Part shown: positions 8,698 to 43,127 of the stretch, in pieces
Layout of the letters: the number at the start of each line of letters is the position of its first letter
How positions within the stretch are numbered: position 1 is the first letter of the stretch
IMG/VR virus record: IMGVR_UViG_3300012936_000036
Span: 1-44,050 of that record
Direction: 5' to 3' (one strand)
Length of the DNA: 44,050 nucleotides
DNA from: a virus
Program-made: the position numbers and the translations under genes
Notes under the pieces: generated by a model
Databases searched by the model: none
The model's input: the letters and a program-made list of their open reading frames with translations, nothing else
Told to the model about the DNA's origin: nothing

Positions 8698-8705
8698 TAT
8701 TTATC
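8698..8705 (-). promoter_or_regulatory. T4-type late promoter (GATAAATA) overlapping the giant gene's stop codon
   Basis: GATAAATA on the minus strand, 18 nt upstream of the ATG at 8680. It overlaps the stop codon (8701-8703) of the 5308-aa gene. It gives the fibre genes their own late start after a 16-kb gene. Confidence 0.72.
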
Positions 8706-11700: not shown

Positions 11701-14700
11701 TTTTACTTCAACTCCTCCATAATCTATTCCGTCCATCAGTTGACTTAAATCTTTATCTAATTGTCCAGTTTGTGGATCGTAAATTAAATTTATTCTGTCT
11801 TGTGCTTGAAGTAAACTTGTTTCTTTTTTATATGTAACAACTATCGCACTAGATATTTCTGCAGGATTTGTTAGAGTAATTCTGCCCTTATACCTATTAT
11901 AACCTTTAGAAGTATCTAAAATATTTTCGTATGTGTATTCGCTAGTAAGAAGTTCCTCACCTGCAACTGTAACGGTAATATTTGTAGATGTCATATTCAT
12001 TGGCCAATTTAAATCAAATACGTACTTTGATCCAGTGCCAACAAAATTTTCAGTTTCATTTAAAGTAGTGATAAAATATTTTCCGCTAGTTCTATCTAAT
12101 TTTACTATAGTATGCATTGAACGTACTACAGACTGACCTATAACTAAACTTAATTTTGCAGGTTTACCTGTATCACTTAAAGATCCCTGAACCGTTAATG
12201 TAGGAGCAGTAATGTATCCTTTGCCAGGATTAATTACTTCTACTGCTGTTACTCTACCATTTGCGCCTAGTTTAGTTATAGCTTTGGCTCCTGTACCGCC
12301 TCCACCTTCAATTACAAGTATAGGAGGTGATTGATAACCAATTCCACCATCGGATATTAAAATTTCTTTTACAACAAATCCTAAATTATCTAACCAATTT
12401 TTTCCAGGATACGTATCTGTATAAAAGTCTGTTCCTTGTAGTTTTCCATCAACAATTTTTAAACTGGTTGTTTCTATTTGCTCAGAATTTTGATTATATC
12501 TAGGAGGTAAATCAAAATCAGCTGTAAGTGTATTACTGTTTTCAATTTTTTCGTAACTACTTACATATTCTCTTAGTTTAGTTTTAAAAGGTTTTACTTC
12601 ATTAATATAATCTTGATAACTAGGTAAGTTATCATTATTAAATGTAATATCTTTTCTAAGTGAACCTACATTATGCTTTGCTTTGATAAAACTGGTTTTA
12701 AACAACCAGTCAACATATAATTGTTCTGCTAATACATATCGTATAGTAGCAAAAAATAATTTATTGTATTCTACTTCTAATTCCTCAATAAATAAATCAT
12801 CTTTGATTGCACCTGCAATAATTCTAGTTTCTGTTGTAGGCAAACTATCATAAAATTTTGTATCAAAACTTATCTCGTCAAAACCGTCAAAAGATGTTGC
12901 AGTATTATATAAAGTGTTTTTAAAGAATATAGTTCCGTTTTGTCTGCCTATAGTTTGGTAATTTATTGTATAATCTACTCCAGGCCTATCGTCAATTTTT
13001 CTTAGAAGTAACCAACCACCTGAACCTATATTTTTAATTTTTACAATTTGATTAATTTTGTCATCTAAGCTATCTAATTCATAAGCAAAATCAACTATGT
13101 GATCAGGTTCACTATACGCACCATATCCTGTAAGGTACCAGTCTTTGTAATCCCAATATAATGTTGTGTTGTACGATTGACTTTTAAATCTATTCCACGA
13201 ACTTGTAGCACTATCTCTTTCATATAATGACCATTTGCCTTGTATTTCTTCATCAGCATTTACTAATACAGTGAACTTTCTAATTGTTACTGTAGTTTTA
13301 TCATTATAATTTTGGCCTTGATTTGTAATTTCTACACTTGCAATAGCTCCAACATTATTCAATGTAAATGCAAATTCAGCACCCGAACCTACACCTGTAA
13401 TTGTGTAAGTAGGAGCAACAAGGTAACCTCTGCCCGGATCTAAAATTATTGCATTGATAATTTTTCCATCTTTGACTGTGACTTGCATAGTTGCTTGCTT
13501 TGCTTTTGCAACACCAAGTGTATCCAATTCAAGTTTAGTATCTACAGATGTGTCATAAATTCTTGTAAGTGTGCTTGGAGCGGGATCTTGTGAATTTAAT
13601 CTCTTAAGACTCTTACTATCAACAATTAATTGTGTCTCTAATACTTTATTAACTTTTTCAACATACTGTTTTAGTGCTTCTAGTCTATTTCTAAACCAGC
13701 TTTGTCTTGGAGAATTTAAAATTCCGTATTTTTGTTTTTCGCCTAGTGTTGGATCAGGCACAATCCTTCCGTATAGATCATAACCTACTAAACTATCAAT
13801 CCATTTAGCCTCTATATCCCTATTAGGTTTGCTACTAGCTAATCCATCAGTAAGAATTTGGTATTGATTATGAACATTAATGTCTTTATTATCTATAGTC
13901 CACCATTGAATGCCTATTGCAACATCATCATCTTGTAAATATTTTTCTACGTTTATAGGTGCAAAACTATCGTTTGTAAATAATGCTACATATTCATAAG
14001 CATTGTTCGCTGGATCTGAAATTAAATTAGCAACATCTGTAGCTTTTAATGATCTACCTTCTACATCTGGTTTAATTTTTTTGTCTTTTACCCAAAAATA
14101 GTATTTGTTAGAAAAAGTTTGGGAAATTTCATCGTATTGTTTTTTTACTGTGTATGCTGAATCAACATTTTTAGCTTGTCCGGATATTCCTATAGATATT
14201 CCTTCGTCAGTATCAGCAAGATTATTCCATTCACTAGGAAGATAGTCAGACTCTACCCATTCATATACATCAATAGTGTTTGACTCAAAAAGTTTATTCC
14301 AATTATTTGCACTGAATGTAACATCACCTTGATATGCATTATAGAACTTTGCATTTGTTAAATCCCACCACAGTTCACCAATATGATTATTGTGCCATGC
14401 ATCTGAAGGATTGTTTACAAAACTGTCATTTGTTGTTGTGTTATATACAGCAGGATCGTAATACAGTTTGAAACTTAAATTTTCTTCTGCTGTGCCTGCA
14501 ATTTTTCCTTGCACTGGATCTATATAATCTAAATATTTTAAAAGTTTTTGTGTTTTTGTATTATATAGAATTACACGCTTAATTTTATCTAAATCTACAG
14601 TCTCTTTTGCTTCCCTTATTTTTGTATAAATCTTTTTACTAGCTAGCCTATAATCTACCATGGTGCCTGAGCTTAATTTATTTGCTTTTACATTGGGTAA

Positions 14701-17700
14701 ACCTACGTATAAATGATTATCTTCTAAAAGTAAATTTCTTCCGAAATAATATACAGGGCTTAATGGTAGTTTTGTATCAGGATCTACTTCAGCATCATAG
14801 CGTAATCTATTTCCAAAAATAAGTTTGTCTACTAAGTTTTCGTAAACATATATAATGCCGCCTTCTTCATTTTCATATCTAAATTTTGTAAAGTCTTTAT
14901 CAAATGTTAATAGTTTATTATCAAAAGTTGTAATGTTAAAATTATCTGCGTTTTTAGCATTGACCGCTAAATGCTTTCCGTTGAAATTTAATTTACTGCC
15001 AAACTGTTCTGCTAATTCGTTATTTGGACTTTCAAGAGTTTGATCTAATTCCCAAGTACCAGTGTCTAAATTATTAGTTGGTTGGTTGTACTTGTAAATA
15101 TAAATTCTTCCTTGGTCATTTTTTATAGTATCATCAAATGGAGAACCTATAGCAATTTTTGTTCCGTCTTCACTTATTGCTATGCTTTCTCCAAATTCAG
15201 CATTAGTGCTTGGCGCAGTAATATCTGCACTCCAACCATATTGTCCTTTATTATTTCTGTAAACAGCAACAATATTAGGCTTATCAGTATATTTTACATT
15301 TGTAATAAGAACTTCGCCATCTAAACTTAGATCAAAGTCTGATCCAAAATCATATATGTTTGTTAATTCTATTACACTATCTAATGCACTGTCGTTTACA
15401 ACTTTTAATCCTGTGTCGTTAGGAATGTGACCCACATAATCAATCATATCGTCAGTTGAAGTCCAAAATGTTGCATCAAATACACTTGGAGTTAAATTTG
15501 TTCTAGCTGTAAACAAACTTCCATCATTGAATACAATGTCGCCGGTAAAATAATTTCTTGTTTCGTCGTATTGCCCTCTAAACTTTTTGTTCTTAGCGTA
15601 CTCCCATGAATAAGCATTTGAGTTTTCTGTTCCTTTCTTGAGGAAAAATATTTTTCCAGGATTACTTGTAGTTTCAACTTCTACTGCACTAACAAATGCT
15701 CTATACAAATCGCCGCTAAGTTTTAATTTAACTCTTGTACCAAAGTAATGATTTGAACTCCGTTGCGGTGATACAATGTCCTCTGTAATAATATATTGCT
15801 GTCCAAATCTTTCATATATAGAAATAAGTCCTTCGTTTGTAAATGTGCTTGCAGATCCTTCAGGACGGGCAGATACTTTGAATACTTCAGTCCAATCTAA
15901 ATTATCTGAAGCAGGTACATTAGCTGGCCTCGGAATACCAGCTACACTAGATGCTTTGTAGAACCAATATTCTACATCTTTTAATTCAAAAGCACTAGGT
16001 ACTGCTATTGTTGTTGCAGCATCAAATACAATCATCTTACCTATGCCTGCTGGGCTATATCCAAGACTTATTTCCTGAATTTGTCCCATTACCCTGTCAG
16101 TAGTATAGATATCAACTCTACCGAATATGTCTGGATTAGGACCGCTAAATCCTTGAGTGCCTGGTAATTGTAAAAATTTTATTTCAGCATTGTCCCCAAA
16201 TAAATCACCTTTACTCCAATTACCTGTAACATTTTTTACATAAATTGTTACATCTCTAAAGTTACGTTTATAGTACATAACTTCAGCTTGTGCCCCTGTC
16301 GTAACATCTTCAACAATTTGTCCTGCACCAGTATCAATCCATGACGTACCAATATATTGATATCTTGGAATAGGTTCAAATGGTTGGCCGTCGAGTGTTT
16401 TTGTGACTCTATAAGTTATAAAACCGTCCCATAAGTCAAATACAGTTTGTTCTTTATTAGACAATGAATAACTTAAATTAATATCACTAGGTTGTACTAA
16501 AGTGCCCACAATAGGTGCAGACATTGGTCTTGCTAAAAGTGGTCCACTTTGAGAACCAGCTAAGAAATCTATTGTACTAAACGATCCTATAATATTTTCA
16601 ATTTTTATACTTGTTGTATTTGAGGCTGTTTCAAAAACTGTGCATTTTGCGTTAGTATTATCCTGTGTAATTAATTCTCCTGCAACAACACTAGTAGGTG
16701 TGTTAACTTCTAGTGTAGTAACAGTTTTCTTAAGCCTATTCCAGTAAAATTGCAGTGTATCGCCAGGCGACAGAGTGCTTGTTAGTGCAGATGGTGCTCT
16801 AGCTACCCAGTATGGTGGTGTAAACGGATCTACAGATCCGCCAGGTCCTGGAGAACCTTGGAAACTAAGGACTTGTAATAGACTATTTTCTGTATTTCTA
16901 CTATCTATAGTAGCTGTCTCTGTATCTAAACTATTGTAATAATAATTTGTACTAGCAGAACTATCAGTTATAGCGTTTTTAATTAATAATCCTCTACCGC
17001 TGTCAACATTTGTTGTTCCTACAGCGTAAGGTGCACCGCAACGAATAAGAAGATAGCCTCCTAATTTATTTGTTGCTGTAAAAGTTTCATCATTAGGAGC
17101 TGAAGAAACATATTCTCCAACAAAGTCGTTACCGGCTATGAACAAACTATTAGAATCAGGAAATACACCATTGACATTGTTAACATATATAGTTGTACTA
17201 CCGCCAACACTAAAAGTGTAAGCAACTGTAGCTGTTGCACCTGTAGTTGTTACTATTTGTCCAATTGCTGGAACATTAGTAACTTGATCTACAAAAAGGA
17301 TAGCATCAATTTTATCACTTACAGTATGATCACCTTCTAAATATTCTTTTGTAATATACGGAATGGTTCCATTAAAAGGGTCTCTATCAGTTAGAGTAAT
17401 TTGTGTTTGATTAGCATTTGTTTTTTTGTTCCAATGAAAAAATATCTCATCTTCTAGACCAACGCCCTCATATAATTGTGCAGGAGCTCTTACTAAGAAA
17501 TGATCTGTAGTTACATTAGTAAAAGGATAATTACCGGCTAGCAGTAAATCTAAACTTTCTGCTCTCTCTTCGTCAAGATTAAGATCAAATAATATTTGAT
17601 CAAAATTTCCAAAACTAGAAAAATTGATGTTTGTTTCACTGCCTTGAATTGCATTATCTGCAGACCAGTAGCTATCTTGATAAGAAACAATATCACCTGC

Positions 17701-20700
17701 AGAGTAATTTGTTGGTCCGGAGTATGCGCCTTTGAAAACTGTTTTTACATTGGAAGCGTTTGGTGATCCAATTATAATATATTTTCCATCTTTTGAAATT
17801 TCTATACTGCTACCAAATTTTTGTCCGCTTGCACAAATTTCCTGTGTAGGTAATAGAATTTGAAATAAATTCCAATTTACAGATTCACTTGGACGTTTAA
17901 ATATGTAAACTTTTCCATCTTCATCTTCTGGAGCACCTATTGCCATTACAACATTTCTTGCATCTACACTCATTGCAACTGCAAAGTTTGTAAATGAATT
18001 ACTCGTACTTTCTGTTGTGCCTAATTTTGCAAAACTATCTTGATTTTCAAGGACTGTCCATTTATTGTTACCTTGATCATCTATCCATATTTTAAATCCT
18101 TTTTGCATAGCAATCTGAGCTATTTGATTTGCGTCATTAATATCTTTTGCTCTGACACTTCTAAATTTAGTAATTATGCCATCGGCATTTTCAAAATCAT
18201 CTGGTGGACTTTCAGACTCGAATTCTATTTTATCTAATGTAATATTTTTAACTTTATAAAACCCTTTAGCATTAGATGTTGCAAACGTTACTTTTTGGCT
18301 GCTGTCCTCTGGATCTACAGTCTGAGATGTCAAACTGACTATTCCAAGTATATCGCCTACTTTAATATCTTGCGGTGTGTTGTTTACCTGAATAGTGAAA
18401 CTATCAGTTCCTTTAGTTAATCCTACAATATCATAATCACATTGTACGTACTGGTATACATTCCAGTCAAAATTAACATTACCTACCCATACATATTGAT
18501 TATTCCTTAATTCATCAATATTAAGTGTAAGAAGATTATTGTAAGTGCCTAAAATAAAATTAACATCTTCAGGATTTACATATCCACTATCTTTTGTATA
18601 ACCTTTGCTTACTAGTTTTGTTGGGAAAGGTTTATGATTATAATTTTTTGATTTGAGGTAAGTTTGATAACTTTGAATCCTATAAATTAAATCAGTTTCT
18701 TCGCCTGTAACAATATCAGTTAATGAAATAGGCTGTGGTTTAAGTCTAAAGTTTTTCTCATTAAGTTTGTATTCTACTTCATTGAAACTTTCGTTAGCAC
18801 CATATTGCCCATCTTTTATAGCCCATTCTTCATAAAATTCTAAACTATCTTTATCTGCACTTGCTAAGGCATCAAATAGTTTCGTAAGTGCATTTTTTGA
18901 TCCTTTATCATTTATGAAACCTTGATAAAATTTATATTGACTTACATCGTCATTAATAATATTTTCTAAATATTTTCTTTTTTGATAACCTATTAAATGC
19001 TGTGCTAATTTTTGTTGTTCTGAATCAAAATTATCTGAATCTAAATCGTAAAAATCAGCAAACTGATTAATTTTATAATCAAAGTTTGCGTATAATCCAC
19101 GTCTCGGAGCTTGGTCTAGTCTTGACCAATCAGTATCTACAAATGTGCTTGTACCTGGTACTTTAAATTTTGCACTGTAAAAAAATTCTTTATATTTTAC
19201 AACATCACCAATTGCATAATCTTTCCATGCTTCCCATTCAGTTATTTTTGCATCATCATATATGAATCCAGGAATATTTAAACTACCATTCCAGTCTGAT
19301 GTTTTATATCCTAAAACTTTTATACGCTCCTGTCTATACCCAGGCTCAACGTCATAAATGATATCTCCAAATACAGTCTGATTGTCTATCAAACAAACAT
19401 GTTCTTTAGATACTAAAGGAATTTTTATGTGATATATACCATCTTCAGTATTGATAGTTCGCACACTAAAATTATTATCTGTATCTTTAGCAAATTTTAC
19501 ATTTGTTGTAGGTAAAATTTTGCCGTCGGCTTTCAATAGACTGTAACCAAAAAATGTTTCTAAGACGTTGGATGGTGTGGCATAATCGCTTTTGAAATTA
19601 ACTTTGTCTGCGCCTGGACTTAAAGAAATAACCGTGCCTGCACCCCAATTTTGTGTTGTCCAATATAAAAATTCTCTCACCGATGTCTGCCAGTCTGCGA
19701 CATCATATGTATCTGCTACAAATTGGCTAAATGAAAATCCTAAAGATTCTAAATACTTTCCGTATCCTAATATAAAATCTACAACATCCTGTATATTTGT
19801 AAATAATGTTCCATAGTTTATCTGAGATGTTTCATTACTATAATTATTACGTAAGAAAGCATCTCTTCCACCTACTGTAGGTAAAGTAGGTAGCTGTACA
19901 TATAATGAAGAATCAAATTCTCCTGCACTTGTATGTGTTTCAACTGCTCGATAAAAACCCCCGCCACTTTTAACAATTACACCTGACACGTAGGTTTTAT
20001 TCGTATCCCAAGTAACAAACGGTTCACTTACACCGCCAACATTAATTAAAGGATCGTTCTGTTTTTTAATAACAGGAAAGTAATTAAACACAGGATTACT
20101 ATTATCATAACCTTTGATGTAATAACCTTCTGTCTGTTTTTCTATTATCAATCCACTATATGTTACTTCTTGTGTAGGAAAACTGCTGTTTAAAAATATA
20201 TCATAATTTTCATCAGGCACAAAAACGTTACCTTGATTAAGTGGTGTACGACTGTCTAGAATTAATCTAAATTTATCTTTATCAGTGAATCCACCTATCT
20301 TGAAACCTATTTGGTTTTTTAAATTAAAAATATTACTTTTATATTTTGTAATATTTTCTCTTGTCAATGCAACTTGGTAATCAATAATATAGTTTATTAT
20401 ACCGCTTGTGTATATTTGAGTAGCATCATCTATTGTAGTGGAGTATACTATACTTGATAGTTGAATTTGTTTTTCTGTATCTCCGTACACAATTTGATTT
20501 GCTAAATTTCTTTTTTGCCTTACCCTATCAAATGCTGTAGCAAATACTTTAGATGGTCTGTTTATACACATTGCACGTAATAATGCAAAAGGGTATTCGC
20601 TAGATCTACGCCAAGCAGCTTCTACTGGTGATCCATCACCAAAACTGAATTGATCATTTGCAAATTCTATATTTAAATTTAAACTGACTCTACTGTCATT

Positions 20701-23700
20701 AGGACTTAACAGTTTACCTGTTGTATCTACAGGAATATTTTGTAGTAAGCCAGGACGCATATATTTTTTATCAATTTTAAATGCAGGCTGTCTGATTATA
20801 CCGCCTTGTAAATCTTCCCATAACGGTAAATTATTAGATGTATATGGTCCAGGTCCGTATTGTGTTTCCCACCAATCTGGCTTTACACTAAAACCAAGCA
20901 TTTCCCAAGGATGCGTATGAGGTCTGTCAGTATCAAATGCATACCTATATAGTTCTCGCCACCAACCTGGACAATCCTCGTTATTAGAATATCTTGTTTG
21001 ACTGTAATTAAATGTGAATGGATTTTCTCTTTGGTAATACACATGTTTTGTATATTCTAAGTCTAATAATCTTAACCAAGATAAAAATTCAGATATCATA
21101 CTATTATCTAAACTTGTCTTATCAATACCAGTTGTTCTGTACAATCCTTTTTGTAATTCGTGTATATCAAATAAAGTTTGATCATATTCTACTTTTATAT
21201 TATTGTAAATTCTTCTTTCTAATTCTAAAACAAGATTGTCTCTAAAATCTTTGTATGCTTTTATTTTACTTCCATCGTGTCCTTGAATTACCGGTGTTCC
21301 TTCAGTCCACTCTATGTAACCTTCTGGCTCAGTCACGCCATGATTTGCACTAGTGTTAGGCATGTAGAATTGTCTATTAAGTCCTACAAAGGTATGTAAG
21401 TGAGCACCACCACTGCCGCCTAACTCTGTGTCTCTAGCTTGTGCTTCTGCTAAAGTAGCGTATATAGGATAAAACCATCCTAGTTTTCCTGCGCCGTTTT
21501 GATTAGGTCCTGCAACTCCATAGATTTTATAAGGTCCAGATGGTAAATCAGGAGGTGCATCCTGTGTAGTATCGTCGATGTAAAATTCTGGTTCAAATTT
21601 AGGATATAATCCTAACTTTGTTGGTGTTGGAGGAACATAACTTCCGTTTGTATTTTCGTATTCGACAATATCAATTACGTCACCAATTTGTTTTGTGGTA
21701 TTAATTACAGCAAAACCTTCGCTATTAAATGTATACTCTTTACCATATGTAAGTTGTAATCCGTTTTGATAAACATTGACTGCTTTGTTGCTTGGATTTG
21801 TCAAAGAAAATATTTCAGATAAAGCAAAAAACTTTTGATCCACGTCTTCTATTTCGATAGAGTTAATTTTTTTACCACCAGAAGGAAGCATATCACTAAA
21901 GTAATATGGCATTTCGTTTGTTTTATCTTTATTAAGTTCTGCAATAATTTCATCTACATGTAATCTCACAGGACCTTCATATCCTAAAGTGTTTGCTATT
22001 TCTAAAAATAATCTTTTAAATTTTCCGTAATCGTATCTTGCAGACGATAATGCTTTTACAACATTACTATTTTCATCTAGTATATGATACAAACTTAAAT
22101 TTAACGGTCCAGAATGTTTTAAAAACTTTTTGCCAACTCCTGCTAATTCATCTGAAGTACCTAAATCACGTAAATTGCTAATGCCAGGAAAACTTCCTAC
22201 AAAATTATCTTTTTCTTCTACTATTGTGCGTAAATGATCATTTACTTCACCTAAAGTAAATTGATTGATATTGTTGTTTAAAGGATTTTTCTCTAAATTA
22301 GATGCAATTTCATAATAACCATTATTTGATTTATCATAAGGACTTCTAGTTTTAATTACTACTATATCATCTGCTTTTAAACTATTAGAGAAATTAATAC
22401 TACTTTCATCATTTACATTTTGTTGTATTGTGTAATCTATATCTTTTTTGTTTAACACATTGTTAACATATACACGAATCCATAAGTTATCTTTAAAAGC
22501 TGTGTTTACATACATATCTAGATCAAATTTTTTCTGATCTGCTGTTGCAACATACTGTCTTATAATTGTTTGTTCACTATCTTTCTTAGCTTTGATCCAT
22601 CCGTTAACTAAATCATAACTGCTTCTATCTTTATATTTTCTGATAAAACCTTGATCAGTATTTTTCATTTGCAAAGCATTATCTTTAGTATATGTAAAGC
22701 TATTATTCAATAAATCAAATGTGAATACAATATCACCAGTATTTTCTATGCTTCTATATGTTAACGGAAACCCTAATTCTGTATCAGCTGTGCCCGAGCT
22801 TTGTGTGTAACTAAAAATTTGGTTTCCTGTAAACAATGAAGAAGGATAAGTTGTTGTATCTGAAAATCCTATATCATTTGAATCGAAAAGATCAAATTTT
22901 GGTTGTTGATTTACGCTTGATTTATTTTGACCTTCTTTCCAATCTTGTCCGTTATAGTAAAAATATTTTCCTCTATTCTTTTCACCCTGTGTTATAAGTA
23001 CTGTTTCATTTATTTGAGGTGTACTATCTGATTCTTCGACTAGTGTAATTTGTGTGTTATTGTTTACTTTAACAAAACGCACTTTAAAAATTTTACCTTT
23101 TACTAAAGGATCAGGATCAGCTGTAAATAATACACGCATACCTTCAGTAAGATTAACTCCGTCTATATTGTATCCTGTTGATCCTTCTACAAACGAAAAA
23201 GCATCAATAGTAAACGAATCTATTAAGTTTACATTACTTTTTGATGCTGTGCCGAAATTATATAATTTTAAACCTTTTTCAAATTCTATAATAGGTCTTG
23301 CGGCCCTACTATTTTGATCAAGATTTGCAATCTGTCCGTTTAATTCTGCAGACTTTTCGATAACTTTTTTATGGAACCATCTATTGTATCTACTCCATAA
23401 ATTACCATCTTTACTGCCTCTGTTAATAACAATGTAATCTTTTTTGCTAGGAAAACCTAGTGCTTCACTAAACGGATAGTAATCAAATTCTTGTGCATCA
23501 AATTCCACTGTAATATCATCTGTAAATAAACCACTTACTTCAAGATCGTCTTGTTTGACAAGTTGTATTTCGCTGCCTACACCTTCTACAAACCATTCAC
23601 TATCTGCATATTTTGCAGGTAAAACATTTCCTAAAAATTTTACTTTCATGCCGTTTGATAAATCAAAACCTGCACTTGTAGTATAAGTTTGTTTTCCTAT

Positions 23701-24627
23701 TATTTCATTATCAACATTTATTTCAGTATTTTCTAAAATGTCTGCTACACGAATCAACCCACTTAAATTTGGATCGTCTTTAGAAATATAGTACAATGAT
23801 TCTGGTGCTGTATCAGGCACCGTAAATTCAATGATACCTTCATCTAACCAATCTTCAGTTGTAATATTTCCTTCACTATCATATTTTGTTATTCCAGTTG
23901 AATATATCAAACTTGTATTAGTTGCTTCATCTTCTGGTTCTCTGCCAGGAGCAAAAGTAATTTTTGTAACAAAAGAAATAGGGTAATTAGGTGTGTTTAC
24001 AGCAAATCTATATGTTTGTCCTCTGTATAAAGTAAAAGTAGGATTATTTGTTAAACCATCCGGTGTGAACAAATATGTCGGATTACCTTCATTATCTTTC
24101 AATCCAACTGTATATGTGCTTTGAACTTCTTTACTTTGTCCAAAAACACTTATTGTTGCTGGTCCTGTGGGCAACCAATAATATTCTCTATAATTTACAA
24201 TTTTGTCCCAATCTATATGCGGATTCCAAGCATAATATTCTTGGCTGTTTAAGTTGCTATGATTATTTGTGTTTGCAGATAACACTTTCAACTTATTAAT
24301 ATAATCATTATAGTCAGCGTAAAAATCTACATTACCTAAATCATCTTTAATTACAGCCGCTGGTTCTAATTGATAGTTTTCCCTATCTTTATTAACATCG
24401 CCAGCATAATTATCATCAGCTTTATATGCTAATGCTTGTTTCCTACCATAAAATACATTTAATTTTTCTGCAACACCTGGTTGCATCATTTGATCTAAAG
24501 TAGAATTTAAAAATTTATTGTTAAATTCAGTTCTAAAATATTTAGGTAAATGATTAGCTGTTTTTCTTTTATAATTTTTGTCACCTGCAGGAAGTGCAGG
24601 TTCTTGTTGATTGTTCTCAAAAGCCAT
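8701..24627 (-). CDS. Giant modular virion structural protein (5308 aa), gp7-position baseplate/tail protein
   Basis: One uninterrupted frame of 5308 residues, roughly 590 kDa, directly after gp6 with a TAATG junction. T4 places the wedge protein gp7 (about 1030 residues) here. The N-terminus (NHLPKYFRTEFNNKFLNSTL) lacks a signal peptide. Visible modules, with approximate residues: four WxxxxxYxxGDxVxxxxxxY units resembling CBM5/12-type carbohydrate-binding folds (near 1550, 1810, 2310, 3035); FG-GAP/propeller-like strands such as FGSSIEISKDGKYIIIGSP (near 2275) and FGESIAISEDGTKIAIGSP (near 3150); GxGYxxxPxxxxxG repeats (3735, 4100-4145); about six DGST/DGTS beta units (4340-5150), two of them in a duplicated 90-residue block; and a C-terminal GVIFIDGERIEYFTKDG segment. 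I infer a very large baseplate-associated or peripheral virion protein with possible glycan-binding surfaces. The exact role is unknown. Confidence 0.8.
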   Translation of the reverse strand: MAFENNQQEPALPAGDKNYKRKTANHLPKYFRTEFNNKFLNSTLDQMMQPGVAEKLNVFYGRKQALAYKADDNYAGDVNKDRENYQLEPAAVIKDDLGNVDFYADYNDYINKLKVLSANTNNHSNLNSQEYYAWNPHIDWDKIVNYREYYWLPTGPATISVFGQSKEVQSTYTVGLKDNEGNPTYLFTPDGLTNNPTFTLYRGQTYRFAVNTPNYPISFVTKITFAPGREPEDEATNTSLIYSTGITKYDSEGNITTEDWLDEGIIEFTVPDTAPESLYYISKDDPNLSGLIRVADILENTEINVDNEIIGKQTYTTSAGFDLSNGMKVKFLGNVLPAKYADSEWFVEGVGSEIQLVKQDDLEVSGLFTDDITVEFDAQEFDYYPFSEALGFPSKKDYIVINRGSKDGNLWSRYNRWFHKKVIEKSAELNGQIANLDQNSRAARPIIEFEKGLKLYNFGTASKSNVNLIDSFTIDAFSFVEGSTGYNIDGVNLTEGMRVLFTADPDPLVKGKIFKVRFVKVNNNTQITLVEESDSTPQINETVLITQGEKNRGKYFYYNGQDWKEGQNKSSVNQQPKFDLFDSNDIGFSDTTTYPSSLFTGNQIFSYTQSSGTADTELGFPLTYRSIENTGDIVFTFDLLNNSFTYTKDNALQMKNTDQGFIRKYKDRSSYDLVNGWIKAKKDSEQTIIRQYVATADQKKFDLDMYVNTAFKDNLWIRVYVNNVLNKKDIDYTIQQNVNDESSINFSNSLKADDIVVIKTRSPYDKSNNGYYEIASNLEKNPLNNNINQFTLGEVNDHLRTIVEEKDNFVGSFPGISNLRDLGTSDELAGVGKKFLKHSGPLNLSLYHILDENSNVVKALSSARYDYGKFKRLFLEIANTLGYEGPVRLHVDEIIAELNKDKTNEMPYYFSDMLPSGGKKINSIEIEDVDQKFFALSEIFSLTNPSNKAVNVYQNGLQLTYGKEYTFNSEGFAVINTTKQIGDVIDIVEYENTNGSYVPPTPTKLGLYPKFEPEFYIDDTTQDAPPDLPSGPYKIYGVAGPNQNGAGKLGWFYPIYATLAEAQARDTELGGSGGAHLHTFVGLNRQFYMPNTSANHGVTEPEGYIEWTEGTPVIQGHDGSKIKAYKDFRDNLVLELERRIYNNIKVEYDQTLFDIHELQKGLYRTTGIDKTSLDNSMISEFLSWLRLLDLEYTKHVYYQRENPFTFNYSQTRYSNNEDCPGWWRELYRYAFDTDRPHTHPWEMLGFSVKPDWWETQYGPGPYTSNNLPLWEDLQGGIIRQPAFKIDKKYMRPGLLQNIPVDTTGKLLSPNDSRVSLNLNIEFANDQFSFGDGSPVEAAWRRSSEYPFALLRAMCINRPSKVFATAFDRVRQKRNLANQIVYGDTEKQIQLSSIVYSTTIDDATQIYTSGIINYIIDYQVALTRENITKYKSNIFNLKNQIGFKIGGFTDKDKFRLILDSRTPLNQGNVFVPDENYDIFLNSSFPTQEVTYSGLIIEKQTEGYYIKGYDNSNPVFNYFPVIKKQNDPLINVGGVSEPFVTWDTNKTYVSGVIVKSGGGFYRAVETHTSAGEFDSSLYVQLPTLPTVGGRDAFLRNNYSNETSQINYGTLFTNIQDVVDFILGYGKYLESLGFSFSQFVADTYDVADWQTSVREFLYWTTQNWGAGTVISLSPGADKVNFKSDYATPSNVLETFFGYSLLKADGKILPTTNVKFAKDTDNNFSVRTINTEDGIYHIKIPLVSKEHVCLIDNQTVFGDIIYDVEPGYRQERIKVLGYKTSDWNGSLNIPGFIYDDAKITEWEAWKDYAIGDVVKYKEFFYSAKFKVPGTSTFVDTDWSRLDQAPRRGLYANFDYKINQFADFYDLDSDNFDSEQQKLAQHLIGYQKRKYLENIINDDVSQYKFYQGFINDKGSKNALTKLFDALASADKDSLEFYEEWAIKDGQYGANESFNEVEYKLNEKNFRLKPQPISLTDIVTGEETDLIYRIQSYQTYLKSKNYNHKPFPTKLVSKGYTKDSGYVNPEDVNFILGTYNNLLTLNIDELRNNQYVWVGNVNFDWNVYQYVQCDYDIVGLTKGTDSFTIQVNNTPQDIKVGDILGIVSLTSQTVDPEDSSQKVTFATSNAKGFYKVKNITLDKIEFESESPPDDFENADGIITKFRSVRAKDINDANQIAQIAMQKGFKIWIDDQGNNKWTVLENQDSFAKLGTTESTSNSFTNFAVAMSVDARNVVMAIGAPEDEDGKVYIFKRPSESVNWNLFQILLPTQEICASGQKFGSSIEISKDGKYIIIGSPNASNVKTVFKGAYSGPTNYSAGDIVSYQDSYWSADNAIQGSETNINFSSFGNFDQILFDLNLDEERAESLDLLLAGNYPFTNVTTDHFLVRAPAQLYEGVGLEDEIFFHWNKKTNANQTQITLTDRDPFNGTIPYITKEYLEGDHTVSDKIDAILFVDQVTNVPAIGQIVTTTGATATVAYTFSVGGSTTIYVNNVNGVFPDSNSLFIAGNDFVGEYVSSAPNDETFTATNKLGGYLLIRCGAPYAVGTTNVDSGRGLLIKNAITDSSASTNYYYNSLDTETATIDSRNTENSLLQVLSFQGSPGPGGSVDPFTPPYWVARAPSALTSTLSPGDTLQFYWNRLKKTVTTLEVNTPTSVVAGELITQDNTNAKCTVFETASNTTSIKIENIIGSFSTIDFLAGSQSGPLLARPMSAPIVGTLVQPSDINLSYSLSNKEQTVFDLWDGFITYRVTKTLDGQPFEPIPRYQYIGTSWIDTGAGQIVEDVTTGAQAEVMYYKRNFRDVTIYVKNVTGNWSKGDLFGDNAEIKFLQLPGTQGFSGPNPDIFGRVDIYTTDRVMGQIQEISLGYSPAGIGKMIVFDAATTIAVPSAFELKDVEYWFYKASSVAGIPRPANVPASDNLDWTEVFKVSARPEGSASTFTNEGLISIYERFGQQYIITEDIVSPQRSSNHYFGTRVKLKLSGDLYRAFVSAVEVETTSNPGKIFFLKKGTENSNAYSWEYAKNKKFRGQYDETRNYFTGDIVFNDGSLFTARTNLTPSVFDATFWTSTDDMIDYVGHIPNDTGLKVVNDSALDSVIELTNIYDFGSDFDLSLDGEVLITNVKYTDKPNIVAVYRNNKGQYGWSADITAPSTNAEFGESIAISEDGTKIAIGSPFDDTIKNDQGRIYIYKYNQPTNNLDTGTWELDQTLESPNNELAEQFGSKLNFNGKHLAVNAKNADNFNITTFDNKLLTFDKDFTKFRYENEEGGIIYVYENLVDKLIFGNRLRYDAEVDPDTKLPLSPVYYFGRNLLLEDNHLYVGLPNVKANKLSSGTMVDYRLASKKIYTKIREAKETVDLDKIKRVILYNTKTQKLLKYLDYIDPVQGKIAGTAEENLSFKLYYDPAVYNTTTNDSFVNNPSDAWHNNHIGELWWDLTNAKFYNAYQGDVTFSANNWNKLFESNTIDVYEWVESDYLPSEWNNLADTDEGISIGISGQAKNVDSAYTVKKQYDEISQTFSNKYYFWVKDKKIKPDVEGRSLKATDVANLISDPANNAYEYVALFTNDSFAPINVEKYLQDDDVAIGIQWWTIDNKDINVHNQYQILTDGLASSKPNRDIEAKWIDSLVGYDLYGRIVPDPTLGEKQKYGILNSPRQSWFRNRLEALKQYVEKVNKVLETQLIVDSKSLKRLNSQDPAPSTLTRIYDTSVDTKLELDTLGVAKAKQATMQVTVKDGKIINAIILDPGRGYLVAPTYTITGVGSGAEFAFTLNNVGAIASVEITNQGQNYNDKTTVTIRKFTVLVNADEEIQGKWSLYERDSATSSWNRFKSQSYNTTLYWDYKDWYLTGYGAYSEPDHIVDFAYELDSLDDKINQIVKIKNIGSGGWLLLRKIDDRPGVDYTINYQTIGRQNGTIFFKNTLYNTATSFDGFDEISFDTKFYDSLPTTETRIIAGAIKDDLFIEELEVEYNKLFFATIRYVLAEQLYVDWLFKTSFIKAKHNVGSLRKDITFNNDNLPSYQDYINEVKPFKTKLREYVSSYEKIENSNTLTADFDLPPRYNQNSEQIETTSLKIVDGKLQGTDFYTDTYPGKNWLDNLGFVVKEILISDGGIGYQSPPILVIEGGGGTGAKAITKLGANGRVTAVEVINPGKGYITAPTLTVQGSLSDTGKPAKLSLVIGQSVVRSMHTIVKLDRTSGKYFITTLNETENFVGTGSKYVFDLNWPMNMTSTNITVTVAGEELLTSEYTYENILDTSKGYNRYKGRITLTNPAEISSAIVVTYKKETSLLQAQDRINLIYDPQTGQLDKDLSQLMDGIDYGGVEVKSFDFGGPSGWDSAPWYTGSYDTYDTTFEDEVITLDGSTVELTLSKPLESGSTYNFYKNGVRLDDPDWTDDSTQFANPNAIMRSIEGDGTTTVLKLDELGVSTAADDIIIVRKTTSDGSFLPTNIDYDAVIKGGDLNYSNALGLNPEDINIDGDGFTTPMNSKGPEELVPGWVQDTVDIKVYERPTVGASHIISRNYVGDGSTKNYDIGTNPITETALFVKVNNSIKTLTTDYTIDYDTKQINFVTAPVANSKVSLVTLEYSGSNILDIDEFTGDGSTVDFLTNIRFTQNMSSLITIDGKQIEHVLIKSDASYIAPNNVVISFAEPPKMGASIRYAIFEGTVQNYSSVVKDSFVHDGSTTSFQLTQTPFIQEPHEWYTIVKLNNTILKAGYTETFKVTETREYRLRLYQVPLASVGNEQVRVFLNNKEITFIQDWTFSSADAFDPLLPLDQQSGSTITLNDSVGQEGDILQVFIIGYDDSTLSGGDYKFGYFDTDGKFIKTPGQLHIGPDYATGDVIEVYQFSNHDSQGIDRQSFDIVERTSLSSGSDLGSQQYQVDGSTATINLVNALEPDRKYALFVNSVRIDDPNFGTGRTVTNPNAKIQTITVSQTTNELRLDDLGITTDAEDVIKITELGSDIVPDASTSDWYEFRNLRNGFIPLNSPAIDDQYVWVTRNGVLLDASVDYYLDPSKTKIKILGGLDLNDNVETFHFSNTQLRNKFGWRQFKDILNRNHYKSVNGKENIKLTQNLNWYDKSIHVENADTLPSPNPTSGLPGVIFIDGERIEYFTKDGLQLKQIRRGTMGTGVKDLYLEGTELYNQSSSFNLPYRDQTVTQIFTADGTSKTYDLDFTPGSVNEFEVFVAGKRMRKTPLQSYELASDNRTNYAKTTEKIAQDSPEGDVTLPAQYNVPIIKTTDPLLPRNPEAGTTYTQDHIQFTFNGEVWTSALNNNSLVLGETPVENSKVIVVRRIGQIWNEQGKTLSNSNTDIARFLLSTQVDLPR

Positions 24628-37943: not shown

Positions 37944-38366
37944 ATGCAATGGACTTATCAAGGAAAAAATATAGACACACTACCGCAAGACATTGAAGGT
38001 TTTGTATACTTGATAACAAATCTTACCAATAATAAAAAATACGTAGGCAAAAAATTAGCCAAATTTAAAACTACAAAGCCACCGCTCAAAGGCAAAAAAA
38101 ACAAAAGGCGCGGATACAAAGAAAGCGATTGGAAAGAATACTGGGGATCCTCAGATCATTTACTTGAAGACGTTCAAACACTAGGTGAAAATAATTTTAC
38201 TAGAGAAATTTTACATATGTGTCCAAGCAGAGGCGTTATGAGCTACTTAGAGGCTAAGGAACAATTCGACCGTAGAGTATTAGAGACAGATGAATATTAC
38301 AACGGAATTATTAATGTGCGTGTCGGAAGTTCAAAAATTCTTAAAGAACATTTAAAGGCAATATAA
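37944..38366 (+). CDS. GIY-YIG family endonuclease (SegE-like)
   Basis: 140 residues. The GIY-YIG core is G19-F-V-Y-L (in GFVYLITNLTNN) and K-Y33-V-G35 (KKYVGKK). After it come a Lys/Arg-rich loop, DWKEYWGSSDHLLEDVQTLG, a conserved-looking NFTREIL and SYLEAKEQFDRRVL, which supplies the usual glutamate. This pattern matches the SegE-type GIY-YIG domain proteins of T4-like phages, many of which are free-standing homing endonucleases. The short gap after the 67-aa gene (18 nt) places it last in the gp47-gp46 operon. It could be a selfish element or a host-DNA or competitor-DNA nuclease. It borders the structured gene-free stretch. Confidence 0.84.
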   Translation: MQWTYQGKNIDTLPQDIEGFVYLITNLTNNKKYVGKKLAKFKTTKPPLKGKKNKRRGYKESDWKEYWGSSDHLLEDVQTLGENNFTREILHMCPSRGVMSYLEAKEQFDRRVLETDEYYNGIINVRVGSSKILKEHLKAI

Positions 38367-38763: not shown

Positions 38764-38778
38764 CTTAGGATGTTAAAA

Positions 38779-39804
38779 ATGAAAGTACATGAAATATTAG
38801 AATCACTTGATATCAAACAAGTAGGTGACGTTTGGCGTATTGTTGATACAACTAAAGGTGATTTTGCATCTTCTGTAGTTTTCAACACAGCTGGTGAAGC
38901 TGAAGAAGCTCGAGATAAATTACAAGCGAAAGCACCAGCTAAGAATACCAAGTCTAACAAAACAGATACAAGCACTAAAAAAAGAGGTGTAGTCAGTAAG
39001 GCACTGTATAAAGATCCTGATGAATTTGCCAAGATGAAAGCTGATAAAGTAGCTAAAGGCGGCACTATAAGAAAGTTGTGGGCAAAAGCAAGCGAGTCGG
39101 GGATGGGAAAATTCATTAAAGGAATGCAAGGCTTACCACTTTTTAAATTAATACTTATAGTCATGCCGGCAGTAGAAGCAAATAGAATAATGGATGACTA
39201 TGCAAAAAATTATTTTTACAATGGATGCAAGTATGGCGACAATCCAGATTTACCATTTGATGAAGATATAGGTAAACAAGGACTTGCACTAAGCAAAGTT
39301 TGGCAAGCTGAAATGCAAAAAGCAAGATATGAAATGTCTTCAGTACTTGCTACAGGTATGATATCTTTTGTATCAACGGCAGCAGTATTTTTCAAAAGAG
39401 GTAGGCAGTTTTTACAAACTCTGAGTTTGGTTGGAGTACTAGCTGGACCTTACACTTGGCTTGGATCGATACTTACATTTATAGTAGGAGTAGGATCAAC
39501 AGCTGCTGCATCATGGGCACTTGCTTACATATCAAGAAAAACAGCATTGTGGAATGGATTATCTAGTATTTTAGTAGATAGATGGTTTACAGAACCAAAA
39601 ATGGAAGCATTGATGAAACATGTGTTTGGAGCATACTGTGTTGAAGGTCATGATTTTTCAGCACCAAAAACATTTATTAATGAATCCAACGAAGCTGACG
39701 CTAGGAAGCAAATTGATTCTGTAAAAAAAGAACTTCAAAAAGATAAAAAGTTTATGAAAGTTTTCAAGATACTTAAAAAACAGGCTAAACAAAAGGCAAT
39801 TTAG
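38779..39804 (+). CDS. Late-expressed predicted membrane protein of unknown function
   Basis: 341 residues from the ATG at 38779. The alternative ATG nine bases upstream overlaps the ribosome site AGGA (38767-38770), which sits at ideal distance from 38779. N-terminal part: MKVHEILESLDIKQVGDVWR then a small domain ending near residue 50, followed by a Lys/Ala/Thr-rich linker. Hydrophobic segments: LPLFKLILIVMPAVEA (about 120), SSVLATGMISFVSTAAVFF (about 195-212) and a long LVGVLAGPYTWLGSILTFIV stretch to AAASWALAYI (about 225-260). The C-terminus is Lys-rich coiled helix. It could be an ejected virion protein, internal head protein or inner-membrane protein; I cannot decide. The 3' end overlaps the minus-strand gp26 frameshift ORF by 20 bp, tail to tail. 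Confidence 0.78.
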   Translation: MKVHEILESLDIKQVGDVWRIVDTTKGDFASSVVFNTAGEAEEARDKLQAKAPAKNTKSNKTDTSTKKRGVVSKALYKDPDEFAKMKADKVAKGGTIRKLWAKASESGMGKFIKGMQGLPLFKLILIVMPAVEANRIMDDYAKNYFYNGCKYGDNPDLPFDEDIGKQGLALSKVWQAEMQKARYEMSSVLATGMISFVSTAAVFFKRGRQFLQTLSLVGVLAGPYTWLGSILTFIVGVGSTAAASWALAYISRKTALWNGLSSILVDRWFTEPKMEALMKHVFGAYCVEGHDFSAPKTFINESNEADARKQIDSVKKELQKDKKFMKVFKILKKQAKQKAI

Positions 39805-40024
39805 TCTTAGTAGTTGTTTCTATATTTTCTTCAGCAATTTTATTAATAACTTCTTTATCGTCAGATGTAATTTTATACATCACATCTTCATATGTAAATG
39901 CTCCACGCATGTACCAAGCTAATTTATATGCTGTATATTTTAGTTGTTTTGTTTTGGTTTCAAGATCTTCTGATAGCTTTAAGATATCAGATTCCTCGAG
40001 CGGAATGAGTTGGTTCCGAAAAAA
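39785..40024 (-). CDS. Overlapping -1 frame ORF downstream of gp26 (gp51-position tail-assembly protein), reached by frameshift
   Basis: The frame is open from 40063 (after a TGA at 40066-40064) to a TAG at 39787-39785, 92 codons. It has no ATG, GTG or TTG until an internal ATG about 45 codons after the slip site. The product reads like a real protein: LIPLEESDILKLSEDLETKT, YTAYKLAWYMRGAFTYEDVM and ENIETTTKTKLPFV, mainly helical. A T TTT TTC heptamer in the gp26 frame (40024-40018) would place ribosomes here after a -1 slip, giving a 356-residue gp26-fusion (279 + 77). In T4 gene 51, the hub-assembly catalyst, follows and overlaps 26, so this is the positional gp51. Rare ATT initiation is the alternative. 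Confidence 0.72.
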   Translation of the reverse strand, partial: FFRNQLIPLEESDILKLSEDLETKTKQLKYTAYKLAWYMRGAFTYEDVMYKITSDDKEVINKIAEENIETTTKTKLPFV

Positions 40025-40854
40025 CTCGAGTAATCCACTGAAACACCTGTTTTGTATACTTGATCACAGTCTTCGCCAGAACATTTCATATCAAATTTTG
40101 GAATACCCCAAGCATCATTAATTTGAGACACACTGGTTTGCAGTTCTCCGTAAAATTCACTGTCATTGTTTACAATGAAGTTTTCTATTTCTGCAAGATT
40201 TGTTTCCTGTTGATCTCCTGATGAAATTGTAGAAACATGTCTCAAAGTTAATTTAAGATTTAGTTTTGTTCTTGCATCAAACAGGGCTTGTCTTTGTTTA
40301 TCTGCTTCTTCATCTGTGATTTCAGCTTTTTCAAGTTGAACTAATTGTTTTTCGATAACAAATGATTCTCTTGAAAATTCTGTGAACTCTTTATATGTAA
40401 GAGGTCGTAAATTGAAAGTTAAATCTTTCAAATGAATTTGTTTTGTAGGTTCATGCGATGCTAATCCATCTAGTATAGCTGGCAATTTTATATCTGCTGT
40501 ATTCTCAGCACTGCACTTTGGACAATTAGCTGTTATAGGCATTTCTTCTCCATAAGTAGCAATTCGTATTGCCATTAACACATAATCTATGTCAAAACCG
40601 ACCAAACTCCAAGGGTCTATAATTAAAGGTACGCAACTTTTAATAACGTCAACTGTAGCCTGCCCTGAAAACAATGCATCAGGCGTCTTTAACATTATCT
40701 CGTCCATAGTATTCATTCCAAAAACAGGAATTTGAGTATATTGACAATCCTGAACAATACCGTTATTATAGTAAACTCCTTGCGATGGTAAGTCAATATA
40801 TATTTTTGGCTGTCTTTTGTATTTTTCTAAAAAACTGCTCACATTATTCTCCAC
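39979..40854 (-). CDS. 26: Baseplate hub assembly protein gp26 (zero-frame product)
   Basis: 291 residues (T4 gp26 is 208). It matches the T4 baseplate-protein family: LPSQGVYYNNGIVQ near residue 23, GMNTMDEIMLKTPDALFSG at 46-64, IKSCVPLIIDPWSLVGFDID at 71-90 and YVLMAIRIATYGEEM. A zinc-ribbon-like pair is present, C111-P-K-C114 and C258-x4-C263. The last 12 codons after the slip site form a short alternative tail (GTNSFRSRNLIS). In T4 gp26 works in central hub assembly. It is divergent from the tape-measure gene, with a late promoter at 40887-40894. A -1 frame ORF overlaps its 3' end. Confidence 0.9.
   Translation of the reverse strand: MENNVSSFLEKYKRQPKIYIDLPSQGVYYNNGIVQDCQYTQIPVFGMNTMDEIMLKTPDALFSGQATVDVIKSCVPLIIDPWSLVGFDIDYVLMAIRIATYGEEMPITANCPKCSAENTADIKLPAILDGLASHEPTKQIHLKDLTFNLRPLTYKEFTEFSRESFVIEKQLVQLEKAEITDEEADKQRQALFDARTKLNLKLTLRHVSTISSGDQQETNLAEIENFIVNNDSEFYGELQTSVSQINDAWGIPKFDMKCSGEDCDQVYKTGVSVDYSSFFGTNSFRSRNLIS
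39995..40030 (-). other. Candidate -1 ribosomal frameshift site with hairpin in gp26
   Basis: On the coding strand the heptamer T TTT TTC (40024-40018) is in phase as agT TTT TTC. Directly after it, CGGAA (40018-40014) pairs with TTCCG (40005-40001) around an 8-nt loop. Flanking CTCGAG copies (40030-40025 and 40000-39995) can pair with each other and extend the stem, with the T-run as a bulge. This has the form of phage tail-chaperone frameshift signals. Confidence 0.68.
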
Positions 40855-40925: not shown

Positions 40926-43127
40926 ATGGCAGATGTAAATTTATCAGAAGACAGTATTAATCGTTTAGCGGATTTAATTACCTCAAAAAGCAAAGAGGGC
41001 AATAAAGATGCTAGAGGAACAAAATTCAGCACTCAAGACTTAGCGAAATCAGGAAAAGATCTTGGACAAACAATGTTTACAGCAGATGCTGGTTTCAAAA
41101 ATTTAACAGGAGCAGTAAAAGACGCTACAAAAGCTATTCCTATTGTTAATAAATTTTCATCTGCTATTGATTTTGGTACTGGTTATATTGATGAGACTGC
41201 TGATACATTTAGAACACTTTCTAAAGTAGGTGGCGGTGCGGCAGGGGAATTATTTCAACTTAGAATGAGAGCTGCAGAATCAAGATTACCTTTAGACACT
41301 TTTGCTAGTTTGGTTGCAAACAATTCTGAACTACTTGCAGGTTTTGCAGGCGGAGTAACAGGCGGCGAGAAAAGACTTGCAGAAATGGGCAATGCGTTAT
41401 TTCAAGATGGCATAATAGAAAAATTCTTAAATTTAGGTTACAGTGTAGAAGAAGCTGTTGAACTTTCATTAAAACAACAAGCAGTACAGCGTAGACGTTT
41501 TATGATGGAAGAAATGTCAGCTACAGATCAAGCCGCAGCCACGGCAGCTTATGCAAAAGATCTTTCAGTAATTGCAAAACTCACAGGTAAACAAGCAGAT
41601 CAAATAGCTGATGAAATGAGAGCGGCACAAGCAGACGGAGCAGTAAGAGCTAAAATGCGTATGCTTGAGAAGCAAGGTATAACAGGAGCAACCGCAGCTA
41701 ATGAAGCGGCTATGTTAGGAATGGCCAAAGGTAGTGAAGCACAGAAACTTGCAATGAAAGAAATTTTAACATTAGGTGCTCCTGTATCCGAAGCGGCAAG
41801 AAACTTTGTAGCAGCCAATGGGGCCGCAGCAGATTTGATGTATCAGACAAAGGCAGCAATTGAAAGTGGAGATGCTGCAGGTGCTAAAAAACTTTCTGAA
41901 CAATCTTTAGCGGCGGCGATCGAATCCGGCGATAGTATGGAAAATTTATATGTAGCTACATTGAAAAGTGTAAGTGATTTTGGTGCTACACAAGCTGAAG
42001 TTTTAGAACAAACAGCAAATGTTACAGATCAAATTCTTGAACAACAAAAAGAGATGAGTGAGACAAACGGAAGATTTGTGACATTAAGTGAAGCATTTAT
42101 AGGCACACTAGCCGAACTAAACAAAGAAGTTGATGAAATGGCTAGAGGTACAGGCGAAGGAAGAAAATCACTTAAAGCATCAAACACAGCAAATGCGGCG
42201 GTTGTAGACGAAACAAATAAAAATATTCATAAATTAAATGAGGAATTAGAAGGTAATTCATTAGTACAAGGTGCTTTAGATAATGTAACTGAAAATGTTG
42301 GTGACGTAGTAGGCGAGTTAGGAACAAAAATAAGAGACGGCGTAGATTTCATCGGTACGATGACAGGTGATAAACAAGCTGAAATGGCTAGAACTCTTGA
42401 ACAAGCAGGATTGTCAGAAGCTGCCGACGTACTAAAAAATGCTACTGATAATCAAGCTAAACAGAAAGCTACAGAATTATTAATTAATGAAGGATACCTA
42501 GATGCACAAGGAAACCTTACCCAAAGCGTTATAGATGCGGCTAAGAAAAATAACGAGAATCTTGCTAATCAATCTACATCAGGTGTAGGAAGTAGTGGTC
42601 CAATAGAATTAAAAGATGAGAATCTTTTACCGGAAAAATCTGCACCTATAAAAGATACTGTGATGAGTGTATTGAAACTTTTAGGTATACCGTTTCCTAT
42701 GAGCGGCAGAGAATTAGGCGGACCTGTAGAATCTAGTAAGATGTATACAGTAGGTGAAGCAGGACCAGAAATGTTTATGTCAAATACAGCTGGTAATATT
42801 ATGAGTAATCAAGATTTACAACTAGCGACATTGGGTCCAGAATTAGGTAACAAGTTTTCAACGTTGGCACAGGAAATGCAAGCATTTGGAGCTCCTATTA
42901 CACAAGCTGCTCAAGAAGCAATGGCCAGTGGCATTACTCCAGAAGCACTACAAAAAATGGAAGATACTATGAACCAAGTGAAAAATCAAATATCTGCTCC
43001 GGATACAGCTTCTAGTCCGGACCTAATTAAAATGATGCAACAACTGGTTGATATAAATAAAAAGACAATGGAAACAGCTAATAAGACGTATAGAACCTGG
43101 GATAACGCATTAAAGGGCATAAATTAA
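40926..43127 (+). CDS. Tail tape-measure protein (gp29-like role)
   Basis: 733 residues, mostly Ala/Glu/Lys-rich helix. The diagnostic segment is at about 593-617: RELGGPVESSKMYTVGEAGP then EMFM and NTAGNIMSNQDLQ. This is the GGPVxxGxxYxVGExGPExF motif common near the end of phage tape-measure proteins. The N-terminal region (NLSEDSINRLADLITSK, FSTQDLAKSGKDLGQTMF) is polar. A Gly/Ala-rich stretch (RMRAAESRLPLDTFASLVAN onward) is moderately hydrophobic. At 0.15 nm per helical residue the length predicts a tail of about 110 nm, T4-like. Sequence similarity to T4 gp29 is not obvious. It lies between gp26/gp51 and the portal, with AAGG before the ATG. Confidence 0.82.
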   Translation: MADVNLSEDSINRLADLITSKSKEGNKDARGTKFSTQDLAKSGKDLGQTMFTADAGFKNLTGAVKDATKAIPIVNKFSSAIDFGTGYIDETADTFRTLSKVGGGAAGELFQLRMRAAESRLPLDTFASLVANNSELLAGFAGGVTGGEKRLAEMGNALFQDGIIEKFLNLGYSVEEAVELSLKQQAVQRRRFMMEEMSATDQAAATAAYAKDLSVIAKLTGKQADQIADEMRAAQADGAVRAKMRMLEKQGITGATAANEAAMLGMAKGSEAQKLAMKEILTLGAPVSEAARNFVAANGAAADLMYQTKAAIESGDAAGAKKLSEQSLAAAIESGDSMENLYVATLKSVSDFGATQAEVLEQTANVTDQILEQQKEMSETNGRFVTLSEAFIGTLAELNKEVDEMARGTGEGRKSLKASNTANAAVVDETNKNIHKLNEELEGNSLVQGALDNVTENVGDVVGELGTKIRDGVDFIGTMTGDKQAEMARTLEQAGLSEAADVLKNATDNQAKQKATELLINEGYLDAQGNLTQSVIDAAKKNNENLANQSTSGVGSSGPIELKDENLLPEKSAPIKDTVMSVLKLLGIPFPMSGRELGGPVESSKMYTVGEAGPEMFMSNTAGNIMSNQDLQLATLGPELGNKFSTLAQEMQAFGAPITQAAQEAMASGITPEALQKMEDTMNQVKNQISAPDTASSPDLIKMMQQLVDINKKTMETANKTYRTWDNALKGIN

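Follow-up and report, generated by a model that had tools for sequence, protein, structure and literature searches.

A T4-type tail assembly chaperone gene on a genome fragment of a marine T4-like bacteriophage is very probably expressed in a short and a long form, to judge from its sequence and its relatives. Ribosomes translating this gp26-type gene would slip back by one base (-1) at the heptamer T TTT TTC and continue into an overlapping frame. The DNA analyzed, here called the window, comprises positions 1-44,050 of the record IMGVR_UViG_3300012936_000036, which is itself a fragment. The comparative evidence for programmed -1 frameshifting, drawn from aligned loci, is very strong; that slipping takes place in cells, and at what rate, we infer from the same comparisons. 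An earlier note on the window had proposed the fusion of gp26 to a C-terminal domain by such a frameshift, and the comparative tests support it. The elements of the locus are as follows:

39979..40854, minus strand: gp26-type gene in the 0 frame, encoding the putative short form (TAC-N); from PF12322, phrog_150, and start analysis
40018..40024, minus strand: slippery heptamer T TTT TTC (0-frame AGT TTT TTC, re-paired TTT TTT), in phase and conserved
39979..39981, minus strand: 0-frame gp26 stop codon TAA, about 12 codons past the heptamer; from comparison of the overlap in relatives
39785..40024, minus strand: putative C-terminal domain in the -1 frame (TAC-C), 79 codons plus the stop codon TAG; from substitution rates, homology to the gp51 tail, and a helical model

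The minus-strand open reading frame (ORF) 40854..39979 encodes a gp26-type protein of 291 amino acids (aa). It matched PF12322 (T4_baseplate, E 4.5e-14) with 53.1 bits, the curated cut-off being 24.5, and also the baseplate hub family phrog_150 (E 1.3e-15). Two GTG codons are candidate starts. The start at 40854 gives forms of 291 and 356 aa (short and long), the sizes stated in the earlier note, which are right for that start. GTG 40842 gives 287 and 352 aa; it has the better ribosome site (Shine-Dalgarno [SD] sequence GGAG at 40852-40849, 6 nucleotides [nt] upstream) and is the likelier start. The heptamer was found where it had been noted, at 40024-40018, in phase and in the context AGT TTT TTC GGA. 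The -1 frame is open for 92 codons, from 40063 to a stop at 39787..39785, and its earliest ATG, GTG, or TTG is the ATG at 39910, the 38th codon past the slip; the claim of a long open frame without an early start was thus confirmed. In-phase TTTTTTC occurs only once in the 14,167 codons of the 22 window ORFs. When the same 22 ORFs were searched for any in-phase X XXY YYZ with a -1 frame extending >20 codons past the stop, two sites were obtained, one of them the heptamer.

In the proposed mechanism, most ribosomes would read gp26 to its own stop and produce the short form (287-291 aa). In some ribosomes, tRNA-Phe on TTT and TTC would slip one base back and re-pair on TTT TTT. These ribosomes would continue in the -1 frame and add a helical domain of 77 residues, giving the long form (352-356 aa). 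By analogy to lambda G/GT, the short form may coat the neighboring tape-measure protein, and a few long copies may recruit other tail parts. In the T4 family, each form would have a gene of its own; the two genes have diverged, gp26 giving the short form and gp51, in which the -1 domain is an in-frame fusion, the long one.

A scan of viral contigs for relatives of the window yielded 53 loci with identities from 85% to 31%. An in-phase T TTT TTC and a -1 ORF of approximately 74-107 codons were present in every locus not ended by a contig edge. The set of window relatives contains 32 distinct overlap sequences and reaches down to 27% identity. The -1 product begins with FFR, and the core WYMRGG...NLS.EER...KEN is present in most loci of the window group. 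The same in-phase heptamer with a -1 ORF was found in the cultivated jumbo phages Atu_ph07, Serratia BF, PA5oct, and 121Q. Among cyanophage-type and related loci, T TTT TTC was present in all 81 and the -1 ORF in 80 (the remaining one lies at a contig end). The heptamer was also detected in S-RIM8, P-SSM2, Vibrio Bakedbeans, Sinorhizobium Phosso, Cronobacter GAP32, Stenotrophomonas BUCT608, and the KVP40-like R10Z; variants of it are present in XacN1 (T TTT TTT) and RHph_I34 (T TTT TTG). Altogether, 146 gp26-type loci with an in-phase run of six T and a -1 ORF were grouped into 79 clusters at 80% identity. Exact TTTTTTC was found in 77 clusters, covering jumbo phages, cyanophages, and one KVP40-like phage. 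Under a codon-usage null, the probability of TTT TTC given Phe-Phe is ~10^-51, and the T ending of the codon before it contributes another factor of ~10^-17; neither common descent nor the choice of loci for their T6 run is allowed for in this null, and its values show a direction only, not a true probability. The comparison of relatives that the earlier note had proposed thus showed conservation of the heptamer, the -1 ORF, and the missing early start.

Some loci differ in detail. In Synechococcus phage S-SCSM1 (L060, 3178-3374), TTTTTTC is present and the +1/-2 frame holds the C-domain ORF, through a sequencing indel or a different shift. L056, L058, L159, L160, and L162 have the slippery site together with an ATG at or beside the gp26 stop, and both a fused and a free C-domain are possible there. 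In the Ackermannviridae-type loci Salmonella phage Mutine (L158, around 2328), L161, and L064, the C-domain ORF is retained without T TTT TTC; in Mutine an early start codon is also absent. No confirmed loci related to the gp26 of Vibrio Bakedbeans were found in viral contigs.

Past the 0-frame stop, nonsynonymous and synonymous substitution rates (dN/dS) between the window and its relatives were 0.085/0.74 for L001, 0.155/0.63 for L002, and 0.26/0.82 for L003 (ratios of ~0.12, 0.25, and 0.32). By this measure, the -1 domain is under purifying selection at the protein level. The stretch from the slip to the 0-frame stop is almost invariant in the nearest relatives. Structures of gp26 and the C-domain were predicted separately. 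The C-domain model is a helical bundle with a predicted local distance difference test (pLDDT) score of 88. The gp26 model has a pLDDT of 84, and its 0-frame residues 282-291, immediately past the slip point, are predicted to be disordered. With the C-domain, a structural search of the PDB gave no match, and Pfam and NCBIfam gave nothing credible. In the BFVD, the gp26 model matched solely gp26-type and unnamed phage proteins. The model was weakly similar in fold to unnamed BFVD proteins of the phiKZ-like jumbo phages RSF1 and RP12 (Ralstonia) and phiEaH2 (Erwinia), and these proteins are possibly undetected chaperones.

The relation to T4 links the locus to a known pair of proteins. PMC3004832 lists T4 gp26 and gp51 as chaperones of hub assembly and gives gp51 as absent from the virion. 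Both T4 proteins matched the full PF12322 profile (E 8.8e-64 for gp26 and 3.9e-52 for gp51), and they align to each other, gp51 having an extra C-terminal part; by these alignments they are paralogues, one short and one long. The cyanophage -1 domain matched the gp51 tail with an hhalign probability of 97 (E 4e-11), the alignment running from the slip point on. The window-group -1 domain matched the second half of this tail (probability 89, E 2.7e-6). None of 100 column shuffles reached either score. A connection of gp51 with the -1 domain of cyanophages was also obtained in PHROGs, through phrog_634 and phrog_150. The link to G/GT-type chaperones drawn in the earlier note is thereby supported through the short and long T4 paralogues. 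The note had also described T4 genes 26 and 51 as overlapping, which is wrong because they are divergent and 50 bp apart.

The window gene and the T4 pair thus share the PF12322 family, and gp51 has a match to the -1 domain in its C-terminal extension; whereas T4 has two divergent genes and its gene 26 ends without a slippery site, the window, a fragmentary record, has one gene and a putative frameshift. Nine phages with a gp26/gp51 pair have two PF12322 genes each, and their gene 26 ends without TTTTTTC. Each of 21 other records checked has one PF12322 gene, and the related records thus do not show the two-gene arrangement of the T4 family. In a tree, Straboviridae gp26 and gp51 formed one clade (support 100/98), with gp51 as one group inside, which fits one duplication in the Straboviridae lineage. 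Because the tree is unrooted and its deep branches are long, the direction of change is a matter of parsimony and not of proof. We lean towards frameshifting at T TTT TTC being ancestral in T4-type phages and having been swapped in the T4 family for a gene duplication, with the long form fixed as gp51. If true, this would explain why T4 is the textbook exception to G/GT frameshifting, which is described as widely conserved except in T4 (PMC5009743).

Candidate stimulatory RNA elements were predicted downstream of the heptamer:

40001..40018, minus strand: CGGAA/TTCCG hairpin (40018-40014 / 40005-40001) whose first base is the last of the heptamer, a possible stimulator; from RNA fold prediction
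39960..39999, minus strand: second predicted stem, CTCGAG:CTTGAG around CTGATA/TATCAG, a possible weak stimulator; z -2.07 for a 73-nt region

Such a hairpin within a CTCGAG/CTCGAG frame had been described in the earlier note. The hairpin is present and predicted to fold, but the frame did not hold: its upstream CTCGAG is replaced by GCAAG in L001, which is 85% identical, and in the predicted fold the downstream CTCGAG pairs with CTTGAG instead. The hairpin itself is retained in L001 and L002, with 4 bp remaining in L003, and is lineage-specific. Since it is kept in two close relatives and CTCGAG is gone at 85% identity, any stimulator would differ by lineage. The second stem is absent from L002 and L003. 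Other window-group lineages (L026, L038, and L048) have 10-bp stems after the site, a strong example being GGCUUUCGAC/GUCGAAAGCC. A single stem common to the group was considered and rejected: five consensus pairs, one of them compensatory, were found in A3 and none in A4, so the stems are lineage-specific. In cyanophages, an SD-like GAGGG precedes the site by ~8 nt (mean duplex -6.2 vs. -2.4 in controls); in the window group, an SD-like stimulator was not above background.

On the other side of gp26 lies a gene in divergent orientation:

40926..43127, plus strand: probable tape-measure gene, 733 aa, divergent from gp26; phrog_1538 (E 9e-6, C-terminal part only) and motif GGPVESSKMYTVGEAGPEMFMSNTAGNIMSNQD

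Its C-terminal motif GGPVESSKMYTVGEAGPEMFMSNTAGNIMSNQD is of what we take to be the tape-measure type, and a Portal_T4 gene at 43129 (plus strand) adjoins it; the product is probably the tape-measure protein, although this identification is not certain. Adjacency to a tape-measure gene, as for G/GT, was therefore found for gp26, in divergent orientation. Together with lambda G/GT and P2 E/E', the window locus shares a short form with a rarer -1 extension, slippage late in the first ORF, and this adjacency. In contrast to the window gene, lambda G/GT belongs to the lambda G family and lies just upstream of its tape-measure gene; the window gene is of PF12322 and its model matched no solved chaperone, so that the solved TAC-N fold was not recovered. 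The likeness to lambda G is best described as an analogy in working, homology not being supported by the fold search.

Other explanations of the overlap were weighed. The -1 ORF could be a separate gene, with its own start codon or translated by re-initiation at the gp26 stop. It is annotated as separate in 121Q, BF, P-SSM2 (gp51), and others; an ATG lies at or beside the gp26 stop in 121Q, BF, R10Z, BUCT608, and RHph_I34, and Cygsa01 and Vibrio 1.244 have TAATG and lack the slippery site. Nevertheless, we consider a separate gene very improbable. The earliest start codon in the window falls 38 codons inside the conserved domain, the -1 ORF of PA5oct contains no start codon throughout, in almost every locus the slip point is where the conserved domain starts, and a free ORF would have no need of an invariant TTTTTTC. 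We give an equally small chance to transcriptional slippage, in which RNA polymerase on the T6 run would generate mRNAs that lack one base and code for the fusion. The site is indeed a T run in an AT-rich genome, but six T are short for polymerase slippage, a C closes the heptamer in 77 of the 79 clusters although a longer run would slip better, and in several lineages SD-like elements and stems occur at the spacing of ribosomal sites. That the overlap is left over from an ancestral fused gene broken in two by a frameshift mutation, with FF and the overlap conserved and no regulated product, seems scarcely credible: the in-frame fusion of the domain in Straboviridae gp51 would suit it, but the -1 frame is under purifying selection and open in essentially all loci, and the heptamer is invariant at the codon level.

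Several results weigh against a programmed frameshift producing two forms of a chaperone. T TTT TTC was not found in the Ackermannviridae phage Mutine, Vibrio 1.244, or Pseudomonas Cygsa01. The -1 domain profiles of the window group and the cyanophages matched each other weakly (probability 2.8, E 0.016). The stimulatory RNA appears lineage-specific and, in the window, weak. A PDB search with the gp26 model gave no match at E 0.001 or better, chaperones included, and the chaperone role of the window gp26 is attributed to it from its family, the T4 literature, and its gene position.

Tail assembly chaperones of T4-like phages were the subject of a study by Vladimirov, Gautam, and Davidson in 2022 (Virology 566:9-15), whose title reportedly argues for a non-frameshift mechanism. 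Judged through citing papers, it likely overlaps with the present frameshift finding. It is cited for the presence in T4-like phages of one short gene and a long one that is fused (PMC10274946), short and long forms being common to that work and ours, and for poly-T slippery sites in these phages (PMC12846349). In Vandenendeviridae/Andersonviridae (phage Adele), a chaperone -1 frameshift occurs at GTTTTT; a T-rich -1 site and a downstream ORF formerly annotated as a separate gene are shared with the window locus (PMC12846349). Adele belongs to other phage families, and its likeness to the PF12322 gene rests on the type of site and the annotation. With the chaperone idea for T4-like phages published in 2022, the mechanism proposed here is not new; the window gene is a well-supported further case. 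It would connect the long-puzzling genes 26 and 51 of the T4 hub with the general system of tail chaperones, and one gene family would have three routes to two forms: frameshifting, a C-domain with a start of its own, and duplication of the gene. Many cyanophage and jumbo-phage genes called gp51 or hypothetical would be fragments of a frameshift product, and the gp26 annotations of these phages would omit the long form.

No DNA-level neighbors of the window were found among phage records. Next to the locus, a plus-strand ORF of 344 aa (38770-39804) has no family match above chance; it and the -1 ORF, on the opposite strand, share 20 bases at their 3' ends. Close to its end, a segE-like GIY-YIG gene (37944-38366, plus strand) also contains an in-phase slippery site, TTTAAAG, and the -1 frame there passes the stop, which looks like chance. 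On the minus strand, a single ORF of 5308 aa extends over 8701-24627.
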